From: Haemophilus massiliensis | GTDB taxonomy: Bacteria > Pseudomonadota > Gammaproteobacteria > Enterobacterales > Pasteurellaceae | Direction: 5' to 3' | Assembly: GCA_000752995.2 (NCBI GenBank) | Contig: LM994632.1 | Location: 1-45,152 of the forward strand | DNA: 45,152 nucleotides | Part shown: one piece after another, positions 11,259 through 27,935 of the stretch | How the letters are laid out: the number at the start of each line of letters is the position of its first letter | Position numbering within the stretch: position 1 is the stretch's first letter | The notes under the pieces: model-generated | The model's input: only the letters and a program-made list of their open reading frames with translations | The model's database searches: none | What the model was told of the DNA's origin: nothing | Made by a program: the position numbers and the translations under genes

Positions 11259-11282
11259 GATTACAAATAATCAAATAGATTA
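11259..11282. promoter_or_regulatory. Alternating GATTA/TAATC half-sites
   Basis: GATTA, TAATC and GATTA again lie within 24 bases, separated by four and five bases. They sit directly upstream of the CRP site of the acid-sugar operon. This arrangement suits a multimeric regulator, such as the DeoR-family protein encoded at the operon's end. Assignment is inference. Confidence 0.35.
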
Positions 11283-11296
11283 TCTTTGGTCATTAT

Positions 11297-11339
11297 TGTG
11301 ATCCATATCACTGTTTATTGCAAAAAATTTCTATATACT
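11297..11339 (+). promoter_or_regulatory. Class II CRP-dependent promoter of the acid-sugar operon
   Basis: TGTGA-TCCATA-TCACT (11297-11312) is a near-consensus CRP site centred at 11304.5. A -10 TATACT lies at 11334-11339 with no good -35. If transcription starts seven bases after the -10, the site is at -41.5, the standard class II position. Strong catabolite control is expected. Confidence 0.75.
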
Positions 11340-11374: not shown

Positions 11375-12643
11375 ATGGAAATGTTAGTAATTGCGGACGA
11401 TTTTACCGGTGCCAATGATACCGGGGTACAGTTTACTCATCAAGGCTTGATGACAGATGTCATACTGAATCCGGAAAACGCCTATTGCGGCGAAGCGGAT
11501 GTTGTGATCATCAATACCGATAGTCGAGCAATGACGATTGAAAACGCTCAAAAAACTATCGCAGCAGCCGTTAAATACCATACAGATGTAAATACCATTT
11601 ATAAAAAAATAGATTCTACCCTAAGAGGCAATATCGGCGCCGAGCTGGAAAGCTGTCTGAACGCAAGCCAGCGCAAGGTGGCTTTTATTTGCACAGCCCT
11701 GCCAGCGGCAAACCGACGCATCAAAAATGGTATATGCTACGTAGGTGATCGGCCGTTACTGGAAACCGAATTCGCCACCGATCCGAAAACACCGCTCATT
11801 TCCTCAACAGTAAAATCAATTATTGCGGCGCAAACCCGCATTCCGGTTGTGGAAATCAATCTGCATCAGTTGAAAAATACCGACTGTCGGCAGGTTATTG
11901 CGCAAAGCATTACCGAGCATTCATCCTGCATTATTGCTTTTGATGCGGAGCAGGAATCGGATTTGGCTCGCATTGCCGCATTGATTCAGCCGTATCATAC
12001 TTCTGCCATAATTGCCGGTTCGGCCGGGCTTGCCAAGTATATTCTGCCGAAAAAACAACCGCACTTTTTACAATCCGAAGACTTGCCCATGCTGTTTGTT
12101 GTGGCATCGATGAGTGAAGTCACGATGCGGCAGGTCGATCATGTTAAATCGCAAAACCACATTAGCGTAATTAATATTGACGTCAAAACGCTGCTGGAAG
12201 AACAGGATCATATTGCGTTTATCGCACAACAAGCGTTCGATCTTTTAAAACAAAAACAACATGTTATTCTAAAAACTGAAAGTTCGGCAGACGCCCGTCA
12301 TCATATTGCGGATTTATGCCGTCGGCTTCATCTTGACCGCGCTCAGTTAGGCGAGCGGATTTGTCGGCAACTATCGACACTGGTTAAGCAGATTTTAACC
12401 CAGCTCAACTTCCAACTCTCCGCCCTGTTTTTAACCGGCGGTGATATTGCGGTCGGGGCGGCAAAGGCGTTAGGACTGAAACATTATCGTATTCTCGGCG
12501 AAATCGAAAACGGCGTGCCATACGGTTATTTTCCGGCAAGTTCACTGGCACATATTCCCGTCATCACGAAAGCGGGCGGGCTGGGCTCAGTTTCAGTTTT
12601 GCAAAATACCCTAGATTTTATTCGGGATCTAAACAAGGAGTAA
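11375..12643 (+). CDS. DUF1537 four-carbon acid-sugar kinase
   Basis: This 422-residue cytoplasmic kinase belongs to the DUF1537 family (D-threonate, D-erythronate, L-threonate or 3-oxo-tetronate kinases), which phosphorylates the 4-hydroxyl of C4 sugar acids. The N-terminal substrate domain opens with VIADDFTGANDTGVQF and has YKKIDSTLRGNIGAEL, both hallmarks. The C-terminal ATP domain has LFLTGGDIAVGAAKALG and KAGGLGS. Adjacent pdxA points to the DtnK/DenK branch, in which the phosphorylated acid is oxidised and decarboxylated to dihydroxyacetone phosphate. First gene of the operon, three bases before pdxA2. An uptake signal lies inside at 12058-12066. The start could also be the ATG at 11381. 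Confidence 0.88.
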   Translation: MEMLVIADDFTGANDTGVQFTHQGLMTDVILNPENAYCGEADVVIINTDSRAMTIENAQKTIAAAVKYHTDVNTIYKKIDSTLRGNIGAELESCLNASQRKVAFICTALPAANRRIKNGICYVGDRPLLETEFATDPKTPLISSTVKSIIAAQTRIPVVEINLHQLKNTDCRQVIAQSITEHSSCIIAFDAEQESDLARIAALIQPYHTSAIIAGSAGLAKYILPKKQPHFLQSEDLPMLFVVASMSEVTMRQVDHVKSQNHISVINIDVKTLLEEQDHIAFIAQQAFDLLKQKQHVILKTESSADARHHIADLCRRLHLDRAQLGERICRQLSTLVKQILTQLNFQLSALFLTGGDIAVGAAKALGLKHYRILGEIENGVPYGYFPASSLAHIPVITKAGGLGSVSVLQNTLDFIRDLNKE

Positions 12644-12646
12644 AAA

Positions 12647-13648
12647 ATGAAACCAATATTAGGCATTACAATGGGCGACGCGGCGGGCATCGGTCCGGAA
12701 GTCATCATTAAGGCACTGGAAGATAAACGAATTTATGAATTGGCGCATCCTATTGTGATTGGCGATAAGAAAATCATGCAGCGCGCGCTGGCTATCGTTC
12801 ATTCGAGCTTGGTGTTAAGAACAGTGGCAGACGTCGAGCATTTTAACGCACAGTTCGGCTATATCGACATGCTGGATTTGGATAATCTACCGGCGGATTT
12901 GCCTTTTGCCAACGTCGACCCGCGCGCGGGCAGAGCCGCTTACGAGTATATTGAAAAAGCGGTGAATTTAACGCTGGATAACAAAATTCACGCCATTGTC
13001 ACCGCACCGTTAAACAAAGAAGCCTTACACGCCGGCGGTAAAAACTTTCCGGGACACACCGAAATTTTGGCACATTTAAGTCATACCTCCGACTATTCCA
13101 TGATGCTGACCAGCGAAAAATTAAACGTTATTCACGTCACCACCCACGTTCAGCTGCGCAAAGCCTGTGATCTGGTCAAGAAAAAACGAGTGCTGAAAGT
13201 GATTGAACTGGCAGATGAATATACCAAAATGCTCGGCATTACCGAACCGCGTATCGCCGTTGCTGGGCTAAATCCGCACGCTGGCGAAAACGGTATGTTC
13301 GGCGACGAAGACGCTGCCGAAATCCTACCGGCGGTACAACAGGCGCGCCAAAATGGTCTGAACGTAAGCGGACCGATTGCGCCGGATACGGTCTTTCACC
13401 GTGCGGCAAATTTAGACGAATTCGATATTGTGGTGGTGATGTATCACGACCAAGGTCATATCCCGATTAAAGTGCTCGGTTTTGATAGCGGCGTCAATGT
13501 CACCGTTGGACTACCGTTTATCCGAACCTCTGTCGATCACGGTACTGCATTCCCTATCGCCGGCAAAGGAATCGCCGACAGCCGCAGCATGACTGAAGCC
13601 CTATACCTCGGCGCCAAAATGGCAAATGTGAAATATGCAAATAAGTAA
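12647..13648 (+). CDS. pdxA2: PdxA2-like 4-phospho-threonate/erythronate dehydrogenase
   Basis: This 333-residue protein is of the PdxA family. PdxA proper acts on 4-phosphohydroxy-L-threonine in vitamin B6 synthesis. PdxA2 members next to DUF1537 kinases oxidise 4-phospho-D-threonate or 4-phospho-D-erythronate with NAD, releasing CO2 and dihydroxyacetone phosphate. Features are ITMGDAAGIGPEVIIKAL at the start and the three metal-binding histidines in THVQLRKA, LNPHAGENG and YHDQGHIPIK. GGAG precedes the ATG. The tight coupling to the kinase (three bases) favours the catabolic role over B6 synthesis. Confidence 0.88.
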   Translation: MKPILGITMGDAAGIGPEVIIKALEDKRIYELAHPIVIGDKKIMQRALAIVHSSLVLRTVADVEHFNAQFGYIDMLDLDNLPADLPFANVDPRAGRAAYEYIEKAVNLTLDNKIHAIVTAPLNKEALHAGGKNFPGHTEILAHLSHTSDYSMMLTSEKLNVIHVTTHVQLRKACDLVKKKRVLKVIELADEYTKMLGITEPRIAVAGLNPHAGENGMFGDEDAAEILPAVQQARQNGLNVSGPIAPDTVFHRAANLDEFDIVVVMYHDQGHIPIKVLGFDSGVNVTVGLPFIRTSVDHGTAFPIAGKGIADSRSMTEALYLGAKMANVKYANK

Positions 13649-13658
13649 GGAGAAAACC

Positions 13659-14534
13659 ATGTTTAAACCCCAAGGTATTGTCACGCCGGTTTTAACCGCA
13701 CTTGACGAAAATGAACAATTCAATCCGCAAGCCTATAAAGCATTTATCAATTATTTGATTGAGGCAGGTGTGCACGGTATTTTCCCGCTGGGTACAAACG
13801 GCGAATTCTATGCCTTTAACCAACAGGAAAAACTGGACATCATTAAAACAGCGGTTGACGCGGTGAACGGTCGCGTCCCCGTTTATGCCGGCGTCGGTTG
13901 CATTACGACCAAAGAAACCGTTGAATTTTCAAAACAAGTCTTGGATCTCGGTGTGGACGTGTTATCGGTAATCTCACCGTATTTCGTTGCCGTCAGTCAG
14001 GATGATCTTTACCGTCATTTCAGCACAATCGCCAAAAACGTCAACGCGCCGATTTTGATGTACAACATCCCGGCACGCACCGGCAACAATATTGATTATA
14101 AAACCCTAAAAAAACTGGCTGAATTCGACAATATCATCGGCATTAAAGACAGTAGCGGAAATTTTGATAATTCATTGAAATATATTGAAAACACCGACCC
14201 AAGATTAAGTGTTATGGCAGGTAGTGATTCCCTGATCTTGTGGACATTATTAGCCGGCGGTACAGGTGCTATCAGCGGCTGTTCCAACGTATTCCCGGAA
14301 CTGATGGTTTCAATCTATGACTATTGGAAGCAAGGGAATATTGAAAGAGCCAACGAAGCGCAGAAAAAAATCCGCCATTTCCGCAACGTCATGCAAATGG
14401 GCAATCCAAATTCTGTGGTAAAACGCGCCGCACTTTTACGCGGCCACAACGTCGGTCCGGCAAGAGAACCTTCCAACTGCGCCAATGCGGTAATCGATAA
14501 CGCATTGCGGGATGTTTTTAAATTGTATGACTAG
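13659..14534 (+). CDS. DapA/NanA-family class I aldolase
   Basis: This 291-residue TIM-barrel Schiff-base lyase belongs to the dihydrodipicolinate synthase/N-acetylneuraminate lyase superfamily. Its Schiff-base lysine is Lys163 in GIKDSSGNF. The catalytic tyrosine is Tyr135 in MYNIPARTG. The substrate carboxylate loop is GTNGEF (45-50). It is probably not the biosynthetic DapA: it sits in a catabolic operon, and family members there cleave or dehydrate 2-keto-3-deoxy sugar acids. The start at 13659 follows AAGGAG by seven bases; the ATG at 13635 overlaps pdxA2 and lacks a site. An uptake signal (13695-13703) and local-like composition mark it as resident DNA, unlike the next genes. Confidence 0.85.
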   Translation: MFKPQGIVTPVLTALDENEQFNPQAYKAFINYLIEAGVHGIFPLGTNGEFYAFNQQEKLDIIKTAVDAVNGRVPVYAGVGCITTKETVEFSKQVLDLGVDVLSVISPYFVAVSQDDLYRHFSTIAKNVNAPILMYNIPARTGNNIDYKTLKKLAEFDNIIGIKDSSGNFDNSLKYIENTDPRLSVMAGSDSLILWTLLAGGTGAISGCSNVFPELMVSIYDYWKQGNIERANEAQKKIRHFRNVMQMGNPNSVVKRAALLRGHNVGPAREPSNCANAVIDNALRDVFKLYD

Positions 14535-14544
14535 GAGCGGAATT

Positions 14545-15522
14545 ATGGCAAAAGTGGTTATCTCTCATCGCCTGCATAATGACGGAATGGCGGTACTAGA
14601 GAAAAACAATACAAACATCGTAATTACCAATAACGGCGATCCTCAAGTCATGTTACCGGAATTATTGGATGCAGACGGATTAATTATTCGTATCGGTTCT
14701 ATTGATCGGGACACAATGTTAAAAGCCAAAAATCTGAAAGCTATCGGAAGACCCGGTGTCGGAGTTGACGATGTAGATGTTAACACAGCAACGGAATTAG
14801 GCATTCCCGTAGTCATTGCACCGGGGGCAAATACTCGTTCCGTTGCAGAACATGCTTTTGCATTGATGTTTGCCTGCGCAAAAGATATCGTCCGCTCAGA
14901 CAAAGAACTGCGCAAAGGAAATTTTAATATTAGAAGTAGTTACAAGGCTTACGAACTGAATAATAAAACATTAGCATTAATCGGATACGGACGTATTGGT
15001 TCAATTTTAGCCCAAATGTCCAATGCCATCGGAATGCATATTAAAGTATATGATCCTTTTGTTTCGGCGGAGGTAGTTGAAAAAGAAGGCTATCAATATT
15101 GCGCTCAATTAAGTGATGCGATTGAAGATGCACACGTTATTTCTATTCACGTTCCTTTAACGAAAGAAACAAAAAACCTTATCGGTGAACGGGAAATCAA
15201 CTTAATGAATGCAAATACTATTCTAATCAATTGTGCGCGGGGCGAAGTTGTGGATGAAAACGCACTAACCCGAGCATTGGAACAAGGTGTTATTCATAGT
15301 ACGGGATTGGATGTTTTTGCTCATGAACCTGTCAATATCAACTCACCACTATTTAAATTAAATAATGTGACAGTATCGCCACATATGGCCGGACAAACCA
15401 AAGAGGCGGCTTCAGGTGTAGCCACAATGGCTGCCGAGGGTGTACTAGCTGTTATTAACGGTGAGCGCTGGCCTTATGTATGTAATCCTGAAGCCTATGA
15501 ACATCCTAGATGGAATAAATAA
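14545..15522 (+). CDS. D-isomer 2-hydroxyacid dehydrogenase (short SerA-like)
   Basis: A 325-residue NAD-dependent dehydrogenase of the D-3-phosphoglycerate dehydrogenase family, without the C-terminal ACT domain of housekeeping SerA. The nucleotide motif is GYGRIG (147-152). The catalytic triad is visible as Arg232 (NCARGEVVDE), Glu261 (FAHEP) and His280 (SPHMAG). It would interconvert a 2-keto acid and a D-2-hydroxy acid, possibly a tetronate or an aldolase product. The ATG at 14545 follows AGGAG by seven bases. Composition falls sharply here: 35 % GC in 14941-15000 against 47 % in 14041-14100 of the preceding gene. No uptake signals. This suggests transfer. Confidence 0.85.
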   Translation: MAKVVISHRLHNDGMAVLEKNNTNIVITNNGDPQVMLPELLDADGLIIRIGSIDRDTMLKAKNLKAIGRPGVGVDDVDVNTATELGIPVVIAPGANTRSVAEHAFALMFACAKDIVRSDKELRKGNFNIRSSYKAYELNNKTLALIGYGRIGSILAQMSNAIGMHIKVYDPFVSAEVVEKEGYQYCAQLSDAIEDAHVISIHVPLTKETKNLIGEREINLMNANTILINCARGEVVDENALTRALEQGVIHSTGLDVFAHEPVNINSPLFKLNNVTVSPHMAGQTKEAASGVATMAAEGVLAVINGERWPYVCNPEAYEHPRWNK

Positions 15523-15535
15523 CGGGGGAAAGACA

Positions 15536-16696
15536 ATGAACCATTTTTATTCATTATTTCATACAAATAAAGTAATTGGCGGAGCAAATAGCATTGAACA
15601 AATCGCTGACGTAGTAACAGAGCATAATGCCGATAAAGTCATTATTATCACTGATCCTGGCGTTTTTAATGCCGGATTGACAAATAAACCCAAAGCGCTG
15701 TTAGAACAAGCGAATATTACTGTACATATTATTAATGATACGCCACCAGAACCACCACTGGATAAAGTCAATCAGATTTATCAAGCAGCTAAACAGTTTA
15801 ATGCCGACATGGTGATCGGCATCGGCGGTGGCAGTGCAATGGATACCGCTAAATTAGTCGCGATCTTATTAAATAATAATGTGCAATTAGGCGATGTTGT
15901 AGATGGCAAAGCAAAATTCCAAAACAGGGGTATTCCGACGTTGATGATCCCGACAACAGCAGGAACAGGTTCAGAAGCTACACAAAATGCAATTGTACTA
16001 GTTCCGGAACGCGAGTTGAAAGTAGGAATTGTCGATGAAAAAATGATACCAAGCTGTGTGATTTTAGATCCGATAATGACTGTTGGTTTACCAAAACATA
16101 TAACGGCAAATACCGGTATCGACGCATTATGTCATGCGATTGAATGTTATATTTCAAAAAAATCAACTCCATTCAGTGAAACTTTTGCCTTAAAAGCCGT
16201 CGAATTAATCGTCCGCAGTATTCGTACCGCTTATTATGACGGAACGGATTTAAAGGCAAGAGAAGATATGATACTGGGGTCTTATTTCGGCGGTGCCTGT
16301 ATTGCCACGTCAAGTACCGTTGCTGTTCATGCTTTATCTTACCCGCTAGGGGGTAAATATCATATTCCTCATGGTCTATCAAATGCGATTTTACTGCCGG
16401 ATGTTATGAAATTTAATCTTGATGCCTGCGAGAAAAAATTTGCTAATGTTGCCAAAGCAATGGGATTAAATATACAAGATTGTTCTCAACGTGAAGCCGC
16501 TGAAAAAATGATTGATGAACTATACGTATTAATTCGTGATCTCGATATTAAATGCGATCTTAAATCCGTTGGTATTACACCAGAGGTGCTGGATGAATTA
16601 GTAGACTCAGCATTTACGGTTAGACGTTTACTTGATAATAATCCGAAAGAAATGACAAAGGCGGATATTCGCACAATTTATCAGAAGATTATTTAA
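15536..16696 (+). CDS. Iron-containing alcohol dehydrogenase (group III)
   Basis: A 386-residue Fe-dependent alcohol dehydrogenase of the FucO/DhaT type. GGGSAMDTAK (97-106) binds NAD(P). The metal ligands are Asp196, His200, His265 and His279, seen in GIDALCHAIE, AVHALSYP and HIPHGLSNAILLP. It reduces small aldehydes or oxidises short diols and hydroxyacids. In this operon a likely role is disposal of an aldehyde such as glycolaldehyde, or oxidation of a hydroxyl of the substrate. The ATG at 15536 has GGGGGAAAG before it. AT-rich like its neighbours. A 66-base gap with a weak hairpin separates it from tctB. Confidence 0.85.
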   Translation: MNHFYSLFHTNKVIGGANSIEQIADVVTEHNADKVIIITDPGVFNAGLTNKPKALLEQANITVHIINDTPPEPPLDKVNQIYQAAKQFNADMVIGIGGGSAMDTAKLVAILLNNNVQLGDVVDGKAKFQNRGIPTLMIPTTAGTGSEATQNAIVLVPERELKVGIVDEKMIPSCVILDPIMTVGLPKHITANTGIDALCHAIECYISKKSTPFSETFALKAVELIVRSIRTAYYDGTDLKAREDMILGSYFGGACIATSSTVAVHALSYPLGGKYHIPHGLSNAILLPDVMKFNLDACEKKFANVAKAMGLNIQDCSQREAAEKMIDELYVLIRDLDIKCDLKSVGITPEVLDELVDSAFTVRRLLDNNPKEMTKADIRTIYQKII

Positions 16697-16707
16697 CAAA
16701 ACGTATT

Positions 16708-16726
16708 AAATCAAATAGTTTGATTT
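16708..16726 (+). other. AT-rich hairpin between alcohol dehydrogenase and tctB
   Basis: AAATCAAA (16708-16715) and TTTGATTT (16719-16726) form an 8-bp stem with a three-base loop, followed by only a short T tract. It could be a weak terminator, an mRNA-end stabiliser or nothing. Confidence 0.3.
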
Positions 16727-16762
16727 TACCAGCTAAACTGCTATTGCATGGAGAATAGTCAT

Positions 16763-17239
16763 ATGAATAAGTATATCTCAGATAAAAATTTTTTGACCGG
16801 ACTCATTTTTTTCTTTGTCGCCTTACTTTATTTAGTCAATGCGTTTTTGATTGAAACAAAAGAGCTCGTTAGTGTTGAGGCAGATTTCATGCCCAAAATC
16901 TACGGATCACTGTTATTACTATCTGCAATAATTTTAATGATAACGTCATTTTTCAAAATTAAAATAAAACCATCTGAAAAATCAAATACTGAAAATGATT
17001 GGAAAAGAATATTCTCCGTTATCGGGTTAATTTTCGTTTATGTGCTATTAATGCAGTATCTTGGGTTTATTTTTACCTCAATACCGTTTTTGTTTCTTTT
17101 ATCTTTATTACTAACGCCCCAATATGTGAAAAAATCATATCGGATATATGCCATATTTTCAATTATACTGCCGATTATTGCATATTATATATTCAGCTAT
17201 TATCTAAACTTAACCATGCCTTCCGGTTTCTTATTTTAG
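16763..17239 (+). CDS. Tripartite tricarboxylate transporter small membrane subunit (TctB family)
   Basis: A 158-residue four-helix membrane protein of the TctB family, the small permease subunit. It is seen as LTGLIFFFVALLYLVNAFLI near the start, then ADFMPKIYGSLLLLSAIIL, and two further helices ending in YYIFSYYLNLTMPSGFLF. GGAGAA precedes the ATG at 16763 by seven bases, so the in-frame ATG at 16748 is not used. It partners the TctA gene 14 bases downstream. TctB proteins vary greatly in sequence, so the assignment rests on topology and neighbours. Confidence 0.82.
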   Translation: MNKYISDKNFLTGLIFFFVALLYLVNAFLIETKELVSVEADFMPKIYGSLLLLSAIILMITSFFKIKIKPSEKSNTENDWKRIFSVIGLIFVYVLLMQYLGFIFTSIPFLFLLSLLLTPQYVKKSYRIYAIFSIILPIIAYYIFSYYLNLTMPSGFLF

Positions 17240-17253
17240 AGAGGAAATAAATT

Positions 17254-18747
17254 ATGTTTGATTCGTTATTCCAAGCCACATCCTCTTTATTCACAATAAG
17301 TGGTTTAATTTGCTTACTGGGTGGCGTATTTATCGGAATTATATTTGGTTCTGTACCGGGACTATCGGCAACAATGGCGTTAGCACTATTTCTGCCTATC
17401 ACTTACGCATTGGATCCTAGTATTGCCGTTATTTTGTTGATAGCACTTTATATCGGCGGCATTTCAGGCGGGTTAATTACAGCTATCTTAACCGGTATCC
17501 CCGGAACACCCTCATCAATTGCCACATGTTTTGACGGATATCCGATGACAAAGAGAAACCAAGCCTTTAAAGCGTTAGGAGTTGGTGTAACCTTTTCTTT
17601 TCTGGGAACGGTATTCTCAACTTTAATTCTGATATTTCTATCTCCTGTATTGGCTAAAATAGCAATTAAATTTGGTGCCTATGAATATTTTGCAGTAGCA
17701 CTATTCTCTTTAAGTATGCTCGTAGGACTATCTGGCAATAATATCTGGAAGGGGTTAATCTCAGGACTGATGGGATGTATGTTTGCAACGGTAGGAATGG
17801 ACAGCATTGCCTCCGTAAACAGATTTACTTTCGGTTCTGAAGAAATTGCCTATGGCTTTGATGTACTTCCTGTGCTTATCGGATTATTTGCAATAAATGA
17901 AATCATCACTAAAGCAGATACAGTTAAATCCGAGCATCAAAATATGCAGGTTATTAACGCCATTAAAATAGAAAAAGGATTAGGTTTTTCTATCAAAGAA
18001 TTTTTTGGTCAAATTAAAAATTTTCTAATCTCTGCATCATTAGGAACAGGAATCGGTATTTTACCTGGTATTGGCGGGGGTGCAGCAAACGTTATGGCAT
18101 ATACCGTTTCTAAATCAACCTCTAAATACCCGGAAAGATACGGAACCGGAATTATTGATGGTGTTGTGGCATCTGAGGCATCAAATAATGCGGCAATCGG
18201 TGGAGCATTAGTACCATTATTGGCATTAGGTATTCCCGGTGATACCGTAACTGCAATCCTATTAGGCGGACTAACCTTGCACGGTATTATTCCCGGCCCA
18301 TTAATGTTTACCGAAAACATTAACATTGTATATGCAATTTTTTCAGCGATGTTTTTTGGTGCCATTATAATGTTTATAATGGAGTTTTATGGACTAAAAA
18401 TATTTACTAAAATTCTTTCTATACCGAAACATTTTTTATTACCAGCGATCTTTCTATTTTGTATTATCGGCGCATTTGGAGTCAGAAATAACTTTTTTGA
18501 TGTGTGGGCGACAGTATTATTCGGAATGATTGGATTTACGTTCTATAAATTATCTATTCCATCTGCACCATTTATATTAGGTTTTATTATAGGTCCCTTA
18601 GCTGAAATTAATTTAAGACGCGGATTGATGTTTTCGCAAGGAAACTTTACCGAATTTTTTAAAGCACCTATTGCAACAACATTTTTTATTCTTACAGCAT
18701 TAATTATTATTTTTGCTATCAAATCTAGAATGAAGAAACAAAATTAA
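17254..18747 (+). CDS. Tripartite tricarboxylate transporter large permease (TctA family)
   Basis: A 497-residue permease with about eleven or twelve membrane helices. The TctA signatures are GVFIGIIFGSVPGLSATMAL near the N-terminus and the repeated GTGIGILPGIGGGAANVMAY in the middle, with LALGIPGDTVTAILLGGLTL after it. It couples ion flow to import of a carboxylate captured by the TctC-type protein. The gene is strongly AT-rich (27 % GC in 18301-18360) and free of uptake signals. It lies 14 bases after tctB and 18 before tctC. Confidence 0.93.
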   Translation: MFDSLFQATSSLFTISGLICLLGGVFIGIIFGSVPGLSATMALALFLPITYALDPSIAVILLIALYIGGISGGLITAILTGIPGTPSSIATCFDGYPMTKRNQAFKALGVGVTFSFLGTVFSTLILIFLSPVLAKIAIKFGAYEYFAVALFSLSMLVGLSGNNIWKGLISGLMGCMFATVGMDSIASVNRFTFGSEEIAYGFDVLPVLIGLFAINEIITKADTVKSEHQNMQVINAIKIEKGLGFSIKEFFGQIKNFLISASLGTGIGILPGIGGGAANVMAYTVSKSTSKYPERYGTGIIDGVVASEASNNAAIGGALVPLLALGIPGDTVTAILLGGLTLHGIIPGPLMFTENINIVYAIFSAMFFGAIIMFIMEFYGLKIFTKILSIPKHFLLPAIFLFCIIGAFGVRNNFFDVWATVLFGMIGFTFYKLSIPSAPFILGFIIGPLAEINLRRGLMFSQGNFTEFFKAPIATTFFILTALIIIFAIKSRMKKQN

Positions 18748-18765
18748 CTTATAAAGGAGTTTTTT

Positions 18766-19746
18766 ATGAAAAAAGTATTTAATCTGATTTTAGTGGGAAT
18801 ATTAGGTTTAAGTATCACCGCTTGTGATAAAAAGACTGATAATGCTTCTTCTCAAGAAGAAAATAGTTGGCCACAAAAAACAATCACGGTGATTGTACCG
18901 TTCGGAGCCGGTGGAGACACTGATTTTCATGCACGTAATTTAGCTAATTATTTGGAAAAAGAGTTAAATACCAGAATCATCGTCAATAATGTTTCCGGTG
19001 CAAACGGCAACGCCGGTATGAAGCAGGCTGTCAGTGCCCAACCAGATGGCTATACCGCTTTATTTTTTCATGAGTCAATGTTGACGAATAAAGTTGTCGG
19101 TGTTTCGACTCAAGCCCATGAAGCCTTATCTCCTGTCGCCGCAACAATCGTAGATAATTCCTACGTTATTGCCGCAAATGCAAAAAGTGGTTATAAAAAT
19201 CTGAATGATCTTATTAATAAAGCGAAATCAGTACCCGGTAAATTGATCTATGCTTCATCTGTCGGAGGATATTCTTATTATTTAGGCCGGGTATTAGAAC
19301 GGGATGCTGGAATTGATTTCAATATTGTTGATGCAGGTGGTGGCAGCGATCGTAACGCGGCTTTATTAGCCGGAAAAATTGATGTAAATGTAAACCCTTA
19401 TGGCGTTATGAAATCTTATTTTGATTCAGGTGACTTTATTCCGCTTGCTGTAATTAGTGATAAACGTAATGACTTATTTCCCAATGTTCCTACAGCCAAA
19501 GAGCAAGGTATAGATTGGATTGCAAAACGATATTATTTTCTGAGTTTCCCTAAAGGAACCGACAGCAAAATTATAGAAAAAATGGAAAAAGCAATTAAAA
19601 CCGTCACTGAAAAACCGGAATTTCGTAAAAAGACAGAAGATGCATACAGTGTTTCACCAACATTTGTGGGAACTAAAGATTTAATTGAACATTTGGATAA
19701 AACCTTACAACTGTTCGAAAACAACAAAAATCTAGTAAATAACTAA
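18766..19746 (+). CDS. Tripartite tricarboxylate transporter binding lipoprotein (TctC/Bug family)
   Basis: A 326-residue solute-binding protein of the Bug/TctC family. It begins with a lipoprotein signal (LGLSITAC, Cys20), so it is likely membrane-anchored in the periplasm. The family region WPQKTITVIVPFGAGGDTDF is conserved, with NVSGANGNAGMKQAV and FPNVPTAKEQGID later. The ligand is probably the C4 or related sugar acid used by the operon, inferred from context alone. AAGGAG precedes the ATG. The order B-A-C differs from the classical C-B-A tricarboxylate operon. Confidence 0.9.
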   Translation: MKKVFNLILVGILGLSITACDKKTDNASSQEENSWPQKTITVIVPFGAGGDTDFHARNLANYLEKELNTRIIVNNVSGANGNAGMKQAVSAQPDGYTALFFHESMLTNKVVGVSTQAHEALSPVAATIVDNSYVIAANAKSGYKNLNDLINKAKSVPGKLIYASSVGGYSYYLGRVLERDAGIDFNIVDAGGGSDRNAALLAGKIDVNVNPYGVMKSYFDSGDFIPLAVISDKRNDLFPNVPTAKEQGIDWIAKRYYFLSFPKGTDSKIIEKMEKAIKTVTEKPEFRKKTEDAYSVSPTFVGTKDLIEHLDKTLQLFENNKNLVNN

Positions 19747-19759
19747 TTTAGTGTAAAAA

Positions 19760-19791
19760 ACTGGTCATTCATGCTAGAATGAGTGACCAGT
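19760..19791. other. 13-bp inverted repeat between tctC-like gene and deoR-family gene
   Basis: ACTGGTCATTCAT (19760-19772) faces ATGAGTGACCAGT (19779-19791) across six bases, with a single G-U position. On the plus strand no T run follows. On the minus strand TTTTTT follows, although no minus gene ends here. It could be an operator, an attenuator that lowers regulator synthesis, or a scar at the edge of the AT-rich block. Confidence 0.5.
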
Positions 19792-19809
19792 CAAAACGAA
19801 TAGTATGCT

Positions 19810-20565
19810 ATGTCCCAAAACCGTCTAGAACAAATAATGCTGTTCTTAAAAAGCCATAATATCGCTACGGTAGAACAGCTTGTTAAAGTCACGAATTCAT
19901 CGCCTGCCACAATTCGCCGCGATTTGATTAAACTGAATGAGGAAGGTGCGGTTATCCGTACCCATGGCGGGGTTAGTCTGAATCAGTTCATTCCGTTTCA
20001 GCCAACCACTAATGAAAAACAATTTCAGCAAATCGTCGAAAAAGATCATATCGCCGAATATGCGGTTTCGTTAATCTCACCGGGAGATTCCGTTGTTTTA
20101 GATGCGGGAACCACAACCTTATGTATTGCCAAAAAAATTGCCCATATACCGTTGCGGGTGATTACGACGGATTTACATATATCCCTGTTACTTTCCGACT
20201 ATAAACAAATCGAGCTGATTATTACCGGTGGTCGCGTGGATAACAGCAGCCAGTCCTGTATCGGACACCAGGGATTAACCTTTTTACAAAACCTTAATCC
20301 GGATATTGCGTTTATCAGCTGTAACTCTTGGAGTAAAGCCAAAGGCGTAACAGCACCGACGGAAGAAAAAGCCTGTTTAAAAAGATACTTACAGCAAAAT
20401 GCCGACAAACGGGTGTTGGTCGCAGACAGCAGCAAATACGGCAAATATTCGCTATATTGTGCCGCACCATTAAATCAGTTTACCGATATTATTACTGACA
20501 AGGGCTTGCCCGCCAAGGATAAAAAAGCACTGGAAGACGGCAATTTTAATCTCGCCTTAGTATAA
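19810..20565 (+). CDS. DeoR-family transcriptional regulator
   Basis: A 251-residue repressor of the DeoR/GlpR type. The N-terminal winged helix is LEQIMLFLKSHNIATVEQLV followed by the recognition helix SSPATIRRDLIKLNEEG and the wing VIRTHGGV. The C-terminal DeoRC sensor domain has SLISPGDSVVLDAGTTTL and DSSKYGKYS and normally binds a phosphorylated sugar. It is the last gene of the acid-sugar operon and probably its regulator, with a phosphorylated tetronate or triose phosphate as effector; that is inference. Composition returns to high GC here (34 of 60 bases in 20221-20280), unlike the block just before it. Confidence 0.85.
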   Translation: MSQNRLEQIMLFLKSHNIATVEQLVKVTNSSPATIRRDLIKLNEEGAVIRTHGGVSLNQFIPFQPTTNEKQFQQIVEKDHIAEYAVSLISPGDSVVLDAGTTTLCIAKKIAHIPLRVITTDLHISLLLSDYKQIELIITGGRVDNSSQSCIGHQGLTFLQNLNPDIAFISCNSWSKAKGVTAPTEEKACLKRYLQQNADKRVLVADSSKYGKYSLYCAAPLNQFTDIITDKGLPAKDKKALEDGNFNLALV

Positions 20566-25127: not shown

Positions 25128-27935
25128 ATGAAAACTCACGGATTTCGCAATACATTCATTTGTCTTTCCGTCGGTTGTTGCTTAGGCGTCGCGACGCATG
25201 CCGACGAAGGGGAAAACGAACCGCTCCAAAACCCCCATGAGCTTATCGGATTAACACCGCAGATCGCCGCACAATATTCAGGTCAGGGGGTCAATCTCGG
25301 CGTGGTGGACAGCGGGTTTATGCTGGAACATCCGCAATTCAACCAACATACAATACATCCGTTGATTCTGGAAGTGGAAGAAAAAGGCGAGAAAATTGTT
25401 ATTGATCCGCGTAAATACGATACCGACATGGAAACAGACGAGCAAGGCAAAAAACACAAGGTTTACGCCATGCACGGCGGGCAAGTCAGCGGGATTATCG
25501 GCGCCCAATCGCTGCCGCAAGTCGGTTATCACGGCGGGGTGGCGAAAGGCAGCAACCTTTATCTCGCCCAATACGAGCCGAACGGTGACCGAGATGATGA
25601 AGAAAATGACGATAACGATGAAAAACATCGCAACAACGTGCGCCGAGCCGGCGCACAAGATGATTCGTTGTTACAGGGCAAAGATGCCGAAGGACAACGT
25701 GTACTGCTGGCGGCGGCGCTGAAAAAAGTGGCGGAAAACAATGTACTTGCCATTAACAACAGCTGGAACGAAGATGCCATCGGCAACAGCGTACAGGCGC
25801 TGGATAACCGCTATCAACAGTACATTACCCGCCATAACAATGACAACCGCCTACTGCAAGGCATCAAACAAACCACCGAAAAAAACATTTTGCTGGTCTT
25901 TGCCGCCGGCAATGAAAGCAAACAACAGCCGGGAATTCTCGCCGCATTGCCGCGTTATCTGCCGGCGCTGGAATCCCATTATTTATCCGTGGTCGCAGTA
26001 GACAAAAATAAAACCCTGGCCAGCTATTCCAACCACTGCGGCGTCAGTAAAAACTGGTGTATCGCCGCGCCCGGCGATTTAACCGTACTGTCCACCGACG
26101 GTGCGGAACAAGGGAAGAAAATACCGAACTTACAGAATCAATCAGGTACCTCATTTGCTGCGCCGACCGTTACCGCTTCGCTCGCCATCCTCAAACAGCG
26201 GTTTTCTTACTTCACTCCGACTCAAGTGCGAGACACTCTGCTGACTACCGCCACGGATTTGGGTAAAAAAGGCGTGGATGAGCAATACGGCTGGGGGCTG
26301 GTAAACATTTCCAAGGCAACTGCCGGTCCTGCTGCACTGCTGCGTGATGAAACTTATCAGGTAACAAAAAATGATTTCTGGTCGAACACACTGACCACAG
26401 AATTTGCCCTGAACAAAGCGGGCAACGCTACATTAACCTTAAACGGTAACAACAACCGTATTCGCACGCTTAATATCAACGCGGGAAAATTGGTATTAAA
26501 CGGCGCCACCTCCGCCGATACGGTCAATAACCGCGCCACCTTAGGACTGACTTCGCTAAACATACGTCAGACTTACCACGCTGCTGCGGACAGTCGGCTG
26601 GAGATCTTGTCGTCGCAAGGCATTAGCGCACAGGGCAAACACGCACAAGTTACGCTAAACGGTACACTAAACGTTGCAGAATCCCTAAAACATCATCGCC
26701 GAGCCGGTGATACGATCAGCCGTATTCTCACCTTGAAAGACGGCGCGACGTATCGCGGCGGATTTCTGGAAGTCGTGAAAAGTGCGGTGCTTTTTCGGCA
26801 AGGATTGCGTCAGGATTTATATTTCAACGCTGACGGCATCACCTTAAAAGCCAATAAAAATCAGGCGATCACCGATCCTAACGCCACCGCTAACGGGCAA
26901 AGCGGTCTGCGCCTGCTTAACGCATTGCGCGATACCCAAATCGCATGGCGGCAAGGTCGCTATAACGACTGGCTGCAACAGGCAGTAGAAAAGCATGATC
27001 TACAGCATTTTCATTATGCCGTTAGCAACGGCATTTACGCCGACAACATGGAGTTTCTGCGACACAGCGCCAGCGCCCAGCTGAGCCAAAACACAAATCA
27101 GCTGTATCGCTACCGCGATTTGGCTTTGCAGCAAGTAACGGTATGGACACAGGCGCAGAGTGACAAATACCGCAGCGACAACATGCCGGCAGTGGAAAAA
27201 GCCACGTTCACCACCCACAGCAGCGAACTGGGGCTGGCATACAAAGCGGACGATAAAATTCTGCTTAGCGCCCGCCTCAATGCACTCAAAACCAGTATCA
27301 GTAAAGGACAGGCAAATTCAACCCTGAAACAACGCAGCGTCGATGCGGCGATACGTTATATACCCGCGCCAAGCGGCTGGTTTGCTGATGCCGCCGCCCA
27401 TCTCGCACAGATTCATTATCATCAACAGCGTACCTTTAACGGCACAACACTGGCATCGGGCAAAACCGAAGGGCATCTGAGTGGCAGCGAATTGCGCGGC
27501 GGTTACGGGTTACAGGTCGGTCGCTGGCAGGCCGAACCGAGCATCGGGTTACAATTGATACATGTAAGCATGAAAGCCTTGCGCGAAAACGGCGAATTTG
27601 CCCTGACGACACCACGTCTGCGCTACACCGACCTGAATCTGGTCGCCGGCGTACGGCTAAACACCCGCTTTATGTTGTCCGACTGGCAAATTAGTCCGCA
27701 TTTCGTCGTTGATTACGACTATCGCCTCAACGGCGGAAAAACCAAGCTGCACAGCCGCTTTGACACAATTGTGCTGAATAGCGAAACCACCGCCTTTGGG
27801 CGCGACGGAATGAACATCGGCACCGGCATACAGTTCACCTACGGCATCTGGTCTCTCGGCACGGAAATCAAACAACGGTTATTCCGACACGGCAGCGCAA
27901 CCGATATTACCGCCCGCCTCGGCGTGAGTTTCTAA
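25128..27935 (+). CDS. Subtilisin-like (S8) serine protease autotransporter
   Basis: A 935-residue type Va autotransporter related to Mannheimia Ssa1 and neisserial NalP. A signal peptide of about 25 residues ends in VATHA. The S8 protease domain (about 40-400) has the full catalytic set: Asp61 (GVVDSGF), His116 (YAMHGGQVSG), the oxyanion Asn in FAAGNES (Asn262) and Ser342 (QSGTSFAAP). Between His and Asn is an acidic insert (DRDDEENDDNDEKHRNN, 154-170). A beta-helical stem with TLTLNGNNNRI repeats follows. The C-terminal 270 residues form the outer-membrane barrel, ending in RLGVSF. GGAG precedes the ATG. It probably processes itself or other surface proteins. The CC in the signal (SVGCCLG) is not a clear lipobox. 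Confidence 0.93.
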   Translation: MKTHGFRNTFICLSVGCCLGVATHADEGENEPLQNPHELIGLTPQIAAQYSGQGVNLGVVDSGFMLEHPQFNQHTIHPLILEVEEKGEKIVIDPRKYDTDMETDEQGKKHKVYAMHGGQVSGIIGAQSLPQVGYHGGVAKGSNLYLAQYEPNGDRDDEENDDNDEKHRNNVRRAGAQDDSLLQGKDAEGQRVLLAAALKKVAENNVLAINNSWNEDAIGNSVQALDNRYQQYITRHNNDNRLLQGIKQTTEKNILLVFAAGNESKQQPGILAALPRYLPALESHYLSVVAVDKNKTLASYSNHCGVSKNWCIAAPGDLTVLSTDGAEQGKKIPNLQNQSGTSFAAPTVTASLAILKQRFSYFTPTQVRDTLLTTATDLGKKGVDEQYGWGLVNISKATAGPAALLRDETYQVTKNDFWSNTLTTEFALNKAGNATLTLNGNNNRIRTLNINAGKLVLNGATSADTVNNRATLGLTSLNIRQTYHAAADSRLEILSSQGISAQGKHAQVTLNGTLNVAESLKHHRRAGDTISRILTLKDGATYRGGFLEVVKSAVLFRQGLRQDLYFNADGITLKANKNQAITDPNATANGQSGLRLLNALRDTQIAWRQGRYNDWLQQAVEKHDLQHFHYAVSNGIYADNMEFLRHSASAQLSQNTNQLYRYRDLALQQVTVWTQAQSDKYRSDNMPAVEKATFTTHSSELGLAYKADDKILLSARLNALKTSISKGQANSTLKQRSVDAAIRYIPAPSGWFADAAAHLAQIHYHQQRTFNGTTLASGKTEGHLSGSELRGGYGLQVGRWQAEPSIGLQLIHVSMKALRENGEFALTTPRLRYTDLNLVAGVRLNTRFMLSDWQISPHFVVDYDYRLNGGKTKLHSRFDTIVLNSETTAFGRDGMNIGTGIQFTYGIWSLGTEIKQRLFRHGSATDITARLGVSF

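Follow-up and report, generated by a model that had tools for sequence, protein, structure and literature searches.

Which substrate would require a DUF1537 kinase, a PdxA2-like dehydrogenase, a DapA-like lyase, a SerA-like dehydrogenase and an iron alcohol dehydrogenase (FeADH) together, in one run with a Tct transporter and a DeoR-family regulator? This question is raised by nine consecutive plus-strand genes (positions 11375 to 20565) in a 45,152-nucleotide stretch of Haemophilus massiliensis DNA (contig LM994632.1; hereafter the window), for which the original prediction offered two explanations: an operon that feeds in longer 2-keto-3-deoxy sugar acids, or two C4-acid pathways that share one transporter. 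Comparison of the gene set across genomes leads us to favour, with slightly better than even confidence, one pathway by which a C7 2-keto-3-deoxy diacid, likely 3-deoxy-D-lyxo-2-heptulosarate (Dha) or its 2-hydroxy form, would enter glycolysis via D-threonate; its reactions, substrate and regulation are what we infer. The nine genes are real, intact and arranged in a single run: all nine open reading frames (ORFs) lie on the plus strand, each matches the family originally assigned to it, and the catalytic motifs sought in the operon proteins, read with the meanings we take them to have, are in place. The intergenic gaps, predicted at 3–66 bases, measure 3, 10, 10, 10, 66, 14, 18 and 63 bases in order, and earlier possible start codons are present for two genes (at 13635 and 16748).

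In the proposed route, the Tct system, recognized by family matches of TctB (16763..17239), TctA (17254..18747) and the TctC-type binding protein (18766..19746), would import the acid, and the SerA-like D-2-hydroxyacid dehydrogenase (14545..15522; Pfam), predicted to act on the 2-hydroxy form of the substrate, would oxidize the 2-hydroxyl to give the 2-keto acid and NADH. The DapA-family lyase (13659..14534; DHDPS family), a predicted 3-deoxy-heptulosarate aldolase, would split this keto acid into pyruvate and the C4 aldehyde acid D-threuronate, which the iron dehydrogenase (15533..16696; Fe-ADH family), a predicted D-threuronate reductase, would reduce to D-threonate, consuming the NADH made by SerA. 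The DUF1537 kinase (11375..12643; SBD_N/NBD_C families), a predicted D-threonate kinase, would then form D-threonate 4-phosphate, and the PdxA2-like enzyme (12647..13648; PdxA family) would convert it to dihydroxyacetone phosphate and CO2. Control would be exerted by the DeoR-family regulator (19810..20565; family match), the last gene of the run, and by CRP. In relatives, SerA and Tct give way to a sialidase-fold protein with YhcH and a DASS-like, SSS or TRAP transporter, which may liberate the 2-keto acid of this route from a ketoside.

The first line of evidence is the company that the lyase gene keeps. When named genomes were scanned with the DapA-like protein, 50 loci were obtained, 48 matching at 61–98% and two outliers at 31–32%; the closest relatives of the window's gene are in Necropsobacter massiliensis (98%) and N. 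rosorum (90%). Neighbourhoods were counted at the 47 loci whose dapA survived the ORF filter, which dropped L081, and the kinase, PdxA2 and FeADH genes lay within 9.5 kb of dapA in 38 of these. Among the other nine (L040, L049, L069, L070, L073, L077, L078, L080 and L082), contig ends truncate L049 and L073, and the filter removed the pdxA2 of L069 (67%). Furthermore, a PdxA2 search of ten genomes recovered a 62% copy on a different contig in Sporomusa, a 45% copy in a Gammaproteobacteria metagenome-assembled genome (MAG), only 37% copies and a 42-residue 60% piece at two contig ends in Propionivibrio, and none in one Megasphaera MAG. The kinase–pdxA2–dapA set travels together, with or without SerA, and the lyase, iron dehydrogenase, kinase and PdxA2 are likely one unit serving a shared pathway. 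At one locus (L036), a KdgT-family permease gene (192.8 bits; model cut-off 453.8) lies between the kinase and pdxA2 genes, beside dapA.

The set is nevertheless parted in some genomes, as would suit two independent C4-acid pathways, one for D-threonate and one taking another acid through SerA, lyase and FeADH, with a shared transporter and regulator. Sporomusa carries dapA-serA-FeADH on contigs separate from kinase-pdxA2, one genome (G029) has the kinase and PdxA2 without an orthologous lyase, and in Roseomonas mucosa the FeADH-DapA-SerA group has no PdxA or kinase listed nearby. However, the Sporomusa genome still holds the other half, and in the genome designated G024 the set is divided in a way that cuts through the supposed pathways rather than separating them: serA, FeADH, tctBAC and genes for a DASS-like transporter, a sialidase-like (BNR) protein and YhcH stand in one row, and dapA, kinase, a KdgT-family permease and pdxA2 on another contig. 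L-threonate is also already served in the window's genome by a separate pair elsewhere, of the kind found in the L-threonate/erythronate (otn) pathway: the L-threonate dehydrogenase scores 470.8 and the 3-oxo-tetronate kinase 606.2, each against a cut-off of 350. Because of this pair, and because the core set co-travels across phyla, we regard two pathways behind one transporter as very improbable; that half of the original prediction is not supported, whereas its longer-acid half agrees with the comparative evidence and is narrowed here to a C7 diacid yielding D-threonate.

The sequence of the lyase gives hints of what it may cleave. It belongs to the DHDPS/NAL superfamily (PF00701, 245.9 bits), narrowly misses the dapA model TIGR00674 (201.7; cut-off 206.15) and falls well below the N-acetylneuraminate lyase model TIGR00683 (124.3; cut-off 382), and canonical dapA and nanA genes are located elsewhere in the same genome. 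A role as the lysine-biosynthetic DapA was rejected, as the genome's other DapA is a far stronger match (401 against a cut-off of 206). Lys163, which we take to be the Schiff-base lysine, is present in 49 of 49 aligned relatives, and Arg140, presumably the binder of the aldehyde carboxylate as in DapA, in 48 of the 49; this arginine is present in the genome's own DapA and absent from its NanA. D-threuronate has the same four-carbon skeleton as aspartate semialdehyde, with which DapA naturally reacts, and a C7 diacid is a likely substrate in agreement with the arginine common to the two enzymes, given the role assumed for it. A plasmid search with the window lyase found only relatives below 60%; one of these, on an Enterococcus gilvus plasmid, adjoins a phosphotransferase system and 2-keto-3-deoxy-6-phosphogluconate aldolase and looks unrelated.

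Some of the nearest relatives point to smaller compounds. The solved structures closest to the lyase include YagE, which carries the name of a probable 2-keto-3-deoxy-galactonate aldolase; lactaldehyde reductase (298.8 against 523) is, with the sulfoacetaldehyde reductase SarD (299.6 against 700), one of the nearest NCBIfam models of the iron enzyme, both being below cut-off; and the KdgT-family permease occurs in one scanned locus. A lyase for a shorter 2-keto-3-deoxy acid (hexonate or pentonate) could release glyceraldehyde or glycolaldehyde for reduction to glycerol or ethylene glycol, with the kinase and PdxA2 handling D-threonate separately. Yet YagE has a leucine at the position where the window's lyase family has its arginine, and a shorter acid leaves it unexplained why the four enzymes keep company at 38 of 47 loci and in distant groups; we consider this explanation unlikely.

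The lower part of the route is indicated by the kinase and PdxA2. PdxA2 has a part in D-threonate catabolism. The window kinase narrowly passes the D-threonate kinase model NF047819 (460.2 bits; cut-off 450) and stays far below the 3-oxo-tetronate kinase model (127.6; cut-off 350), and its best solved relative is PDB 4xfm (245 bits), which we take to be the characterized D-threonate kinase of Pectobacterium (the structure record says uncharacterized). The kinase of the Enterobacterales locus L156 is nearly identical to 4xfm over its full length (852 bits) and scores 613.5 against the D-threonate kinase cut-off of 450, in agreement with that assumed identity, and the kinase of L155 matches 4xfm at 361 bits. 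The Enterobacterales PdxA2 proteins of L155, L156 and Pantoea ananatis pass the cut-off for D-threonate-4-phosphate dehydrogenase (NF002891). The window protein misses it (357.9 against 583) and is for this reason called PdxA2-like only; it passes the general PdxA model TIGR00557 (4-hydroxythreonine-4-phosphate dehydrogenase; 367.2 against 290.35), which is not discriminating, as it is also passed by the three proteins above the D-threonate cut-off. PdxA copies of Comamonadaceae, S. meliloti, Caballeronia and Subdoligranulum also miss NF002891. In Succinatimonas hippei and Caballeronia, kinase and PdxA2 are fused in one protein. Within the window's kinase gene, a segment (11884-12283) is only 74–76% identical to N. 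massiliensis DNA between flanking stretches at 84–98%, as would result from replacement, or rapid evolution, of part of the gene.

If the lyase yields pyruvate and an aldehyde that is reduced to D-threonate, the aldehyde would be D-threuronate and the keto acid therefore a 3-deoxy-heptulosarate with D-threo configuration at C5/C6. Fischer bookkeeping takes Dha, after cleavage and reduction, to D-threonate, and to our knowledge Dha is the one natural substrate that fits the succession of hydrolase, lyase, reductase, D-threonate kinase and PdxA2; it is the best fit as substrate. That the substrate is a 2-keto-3-deoxy acid is likely, given the predicted sialidase fold, YhcH, the lyase of the DapA/NanA superfamily and the KdgT-family permease. 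Genes for TctA, TctB and TctC are all present in the window, giving a complete tripartite tricarboxylate transporter, and the PDB relatives of TctC gave no closer indication of the ligand. Tct, DASS-like and TRAP transporters beside the operons are a weak sign of a diacid, because SSS, MFS and ABC types occur there too.

How the keto acid is reached appears to differ between genomes. Compared with the sister species N. massiliensis, the window DNA is 96–100% identical between 12284 and 14530, where dapA ends, followed by an exchanged block (14531..19740, plus strand) that holds serA-FeADH-tctBAC in the window and FeADH-DASS-like-sialidase-like-YhcH-Na/Ca exchanger in N. massiliensis; the serA and tct genes have no match there, the FeADH genes are 77% alike, and similarity resumes at 19741, before deoR. 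Near dapA, 33 of the 47 loci have only a SerA-like gene, nine only a sialidase-like (BNR) gene, one both and four neither. The BNR protein, searched in 43 genomes, found some match in 18; among the 27 serA-type genomes there was none in 24, a distant family member in two (G065 and G076), and a 65% relative on a different contig in Propionivibrio (G061). SerA, searched in 16 genomes, had a close copy (at least 77%) only in the window's genome and G024, and a best match of 31–38% in the remaining 14, of which 13 are BNR-type. On a DapA tree of 51 rows (in which L080 is a remote paralogue with a very long branch, and the BNR label of L075-L077 was taken from the genome instead of the locus), the serA/BNR label requires at least seven changes with the rows bearing both left out and nine with 'both' as a third state. 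Because the label changes on the tree and the block is exchanged cleanly in N. massiliensis, SerA with Tct and BNR with YhcH and another transporter look like alternative ways into the same lyase, sometimes combined.

The predicted chemistry of the BNR module is in keeping with a ketoside. A structural model of the BNR protein (built from 23 sequences) has a sialidase fold (pLDDT 91.2), with 1eus as the top Foldseek match (TMq 0.70) and sialidases or neuraminidases making up 48 of the 50 PDB matches listed, so that the modelled protein falls within the GH33-type sialidase fold and is predicted to hydrolyse a ketoside. By eye, no signal peptide is seen in it. YhcH scores 104.7 bits against the N-acetylneuraminate anomerase model (cut-off 160), as a relative of that anomerase. 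A search of the window's genome with the BNR protein found no sialidase-like relative, and the acid is therefore predicted to arrive there free.

For SerA, oxidation of the 2-hydroxy form of the substrate to the keto acid is our tentative assignment. Among 34 serA loci, three have a nickel-pincer (LarA-type) isomerase (group 22; the scanned representative passes its cut-off) and seven an amidohydrolase nearby, and in the distant SerA locus of Roseomonas mucosa the FeADH and DapA genes are neighboured by one whose annotation reads SMP-30/gluconolactonase, a name without NCBIfam confirmation. A plasmid search with SerA found only relatives below 60%. The same core pathway could have SerA downstream or sideways, for example turning pyruvate into D-lactate, as the 2-hydroxyacid dehydrogenase superfamily includes D-lactate dehydrogenases, the VanH and D-lactate models being below cut-off for SerA. 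This placement appears rather improbable, since SerA swaps with the sialidase-like entry module, and the isomerase, amidohydrolase and annotated gluconolactonase near serA fit entry of a 2-hydroxy acid or lactone.

The gene set, with less similar lyases beside a sialidase-fold gene, recurs in Enterobacterales, rhizobia and Burkholderiales. Among the 120 top-scoring of 5027 BNR matches, those with a named source were mostly from Gilliamella, Erwinia, Dickeya, Rahnella, Pantoea and Serratia, and 24 of 295 Enterobacterales genomes had a BNR match. We read six of the seven Enterobacterales loci with a BNR match of at least 66% (the seventh, G025, was covered separately): in all six, the genes for FeADH, the DapA-like lyase, an SSS transporter and BNR follow one another and that for PdxA2 is nearby, and five of the six have the kinase beside PdxA2 and, also in five, a DeoR gene product 58–60% identical to that of the window beside kinase-pdxA2. 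Of 312 plasmid records, 15 BNR-bearing regions were hand-picked; DapA-like lyase, FeADH and PdxA occur together in 13 of these, and a full kinase is annotated in eight, with a kinase fragment in one more. Eight lyases aligned from such regions are only 26–39% identical to that of the window, and for this reason what is conserved seems to be the function rather than a single gene lineage of lyase. On a Thioclava plasmid (L124, 1-2347), the BNR-FeADH-kinase-PdxA-DapA cluster adjoins L-rhamnose catabolism genes, a neighbourhood in keeping with a pectin source.

A second sialidase-like family stands with Tct and an L-fucose-isomerase-like gene in eight genomes (L092, L096 and L102-L107), with a DapA-family lyase nearby in five (L092, L096, L103, L106 and L107) and an FGGY kinase in L092 and L107; in Lonepinella koalarum (L092, 467-10101) it lies about 3 kb from the dapA operon. 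Our guess is a route for 3-deoxy-D-manno-octulosonate (Kdo), through pyruvate and D-arabinose, an isomerase and a kinase.

Several observations weigh against a single Dha pathway. The SerA step is its weakest part, resting on co-occurrence, and no natural 3-deoxy-heptarate is known to us. SerA and the sialidase-like protein are not strictly exclusive, both being found in G024, G061, the L086 genome and Rhizobium BG4 and BG6, where BNR and a SerA relative stand in one row. The window kinase is just above its cut-off, the PdxA2-like protein fits the general PdxA model and not the D-threonate one, and G029 has its kinase and PdxA2 without the lyase. Elsewhere, all four kinases scanned from Pelosinus, a Succinivibrionaceae MAG, Megasphaera and Lonepinella score 222–423, under the cut-off of 450; the Enterobacterales locus L160 misses both D-threonate models (kinase 424.7, PdxA2 543.9); and in rhizobia and Burkholderiales the kinases, at 116–160, are far under the cut-off, and PdxA misses the D-threonate model widely and fits general PdxA. 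The arginine is absent from three of the eight distant lyases aligned. Among the plasmid regions, those of P. piersonii and Roseomonas haemaphysalidis are without PdxA, one of the two also without DapA and FeADH. A short-chain dehydrogenase gene after the sialidase-like gene, and after YhcH if present (L108, 10569-11249; L111, 10191-10886; L155-L159), has no place in the proposed scheme, and no hydrolase specific for rhamnogalacturonan II (RG-II) was seen beside the operons read.

Upstream of the kinase gene lies a CRP-type site, TGTGATCCATATCACT (11297..11312, plus strand), with one mismatch to TGTGAN6TCACA and kept in four of four aligned upstream regions. A -10-like hexamer, TATACT (11334..11339, plus strand), was read in the sequence and is not among the matches of a simple scan; the centre of the CRP-type site would lie about 41.5 bases upstream of the start site expected from it, as in a likely class II arrangement. 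The window holds four sites with one mismatch to the CRP consensus (0.89 expected; three of 100 shuffles reach four), and such a match is weak evidence alone; one CRP promoter for the operon would fit the sequence. Shortly before the CRP-type site, AATCAAANAGATT (11269-11281) is kept in all four aligned regions and could be a DeoR operator. A terminator scan of the window found 10 matches against 10.5 expected, both plus-strand matches lying inside genes, and Rfam and tRNA searches of the window gave no match. Further downstream, an ORF of 935 amino acids (25128-27935) resembles, by eye from its translation, a subtilisin-type autotransporter.

The proposed route has parallels in known systems. 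The galactarate/glucarate pathway (GarD-GarL-GarR-GarK) takes a 2-keto-3-deoxy diacid through an aldolase to pyruvate and an aldehyde acid, followed by a reductase and a kinase. The window pathway would share this logic, but is one carbon longer, uses unrelated enzyme families and no dehydratase, and has a tetronate kinase and PdxA2 in place of glycerate kinase. Sialic acid catabolism employs a sialidase, the NanQ/YhcH anomerase and NanA lyase; the sialidase-type variant likewise has a sialidase-fold protein, YhcH and a NanA/DapA superfamily lyase, whereas the regions read showed no amino-sugar enzyme, NanA has its own gene elsewhere in the genome, and a D-threonate route would follow the lyase. 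With DapA the lyase shares the fold family and the lysine and arginine in their presumed roles, and differs in narrowly missing the model and sitting in a catabolic operon of a genome that has its own DapA. Catabolism of D-threonate by DtnK, a DUF1537 kinase, is described (Zhang et al. 2016, cited in PMC10971088, of which part was available). The window pathway has the kinase and PdxA2 families in common with this system and, by prediction, its final two reactions, but D-threonate would here be an internal intermediate made by the lyase and iron dehydrogenase rather than an imported substrate.

Dha and Kdo both occur in the pectin RG-II, their sole location in plants, and both resemble sialic acid in structure (PMC6353982, PMC12168206); RG-II is a conserved part of the plant cell wall (PMC12168206), and a gut bacterium degrades it (PMC12282258), according to the portions of these articles available. 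In the available portions of PMC12904279 and PMC8809351 the kinase appears only in lists. No published account of a Dha catabolic route was found in the portions available of the literature searched, which covered few subscription journals, and within the same literature the earlier statement that no described pathway has this gene set holds.

We put at about even the prospect that this is the first recognized cytoplasmic Dha pathway: a C7 analogue of the galactarate route, built of modules, whose entry part can be exchanged (ketosidase with anomerase, or 2-hydroxyacid dehydrogenase) and which extends through Pasteurellaceae, Negativicutes, Succinivibrionaceae, Enterobacterales, rhizobia and Burkholderiales. 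If true, D-threonate would gain a physiological source, which would explain why bacteria have a D-threonate pathway, and many 'DapA', 'PdxA', 'alcohol dehydrogenase' and 'exo-alpha-sialidase' names in rhizobia and enterobacteria would be corrected. The gene set would then give the fate of Dha, and markers for bacteria that use RG-II leftovers in guts and on plants.

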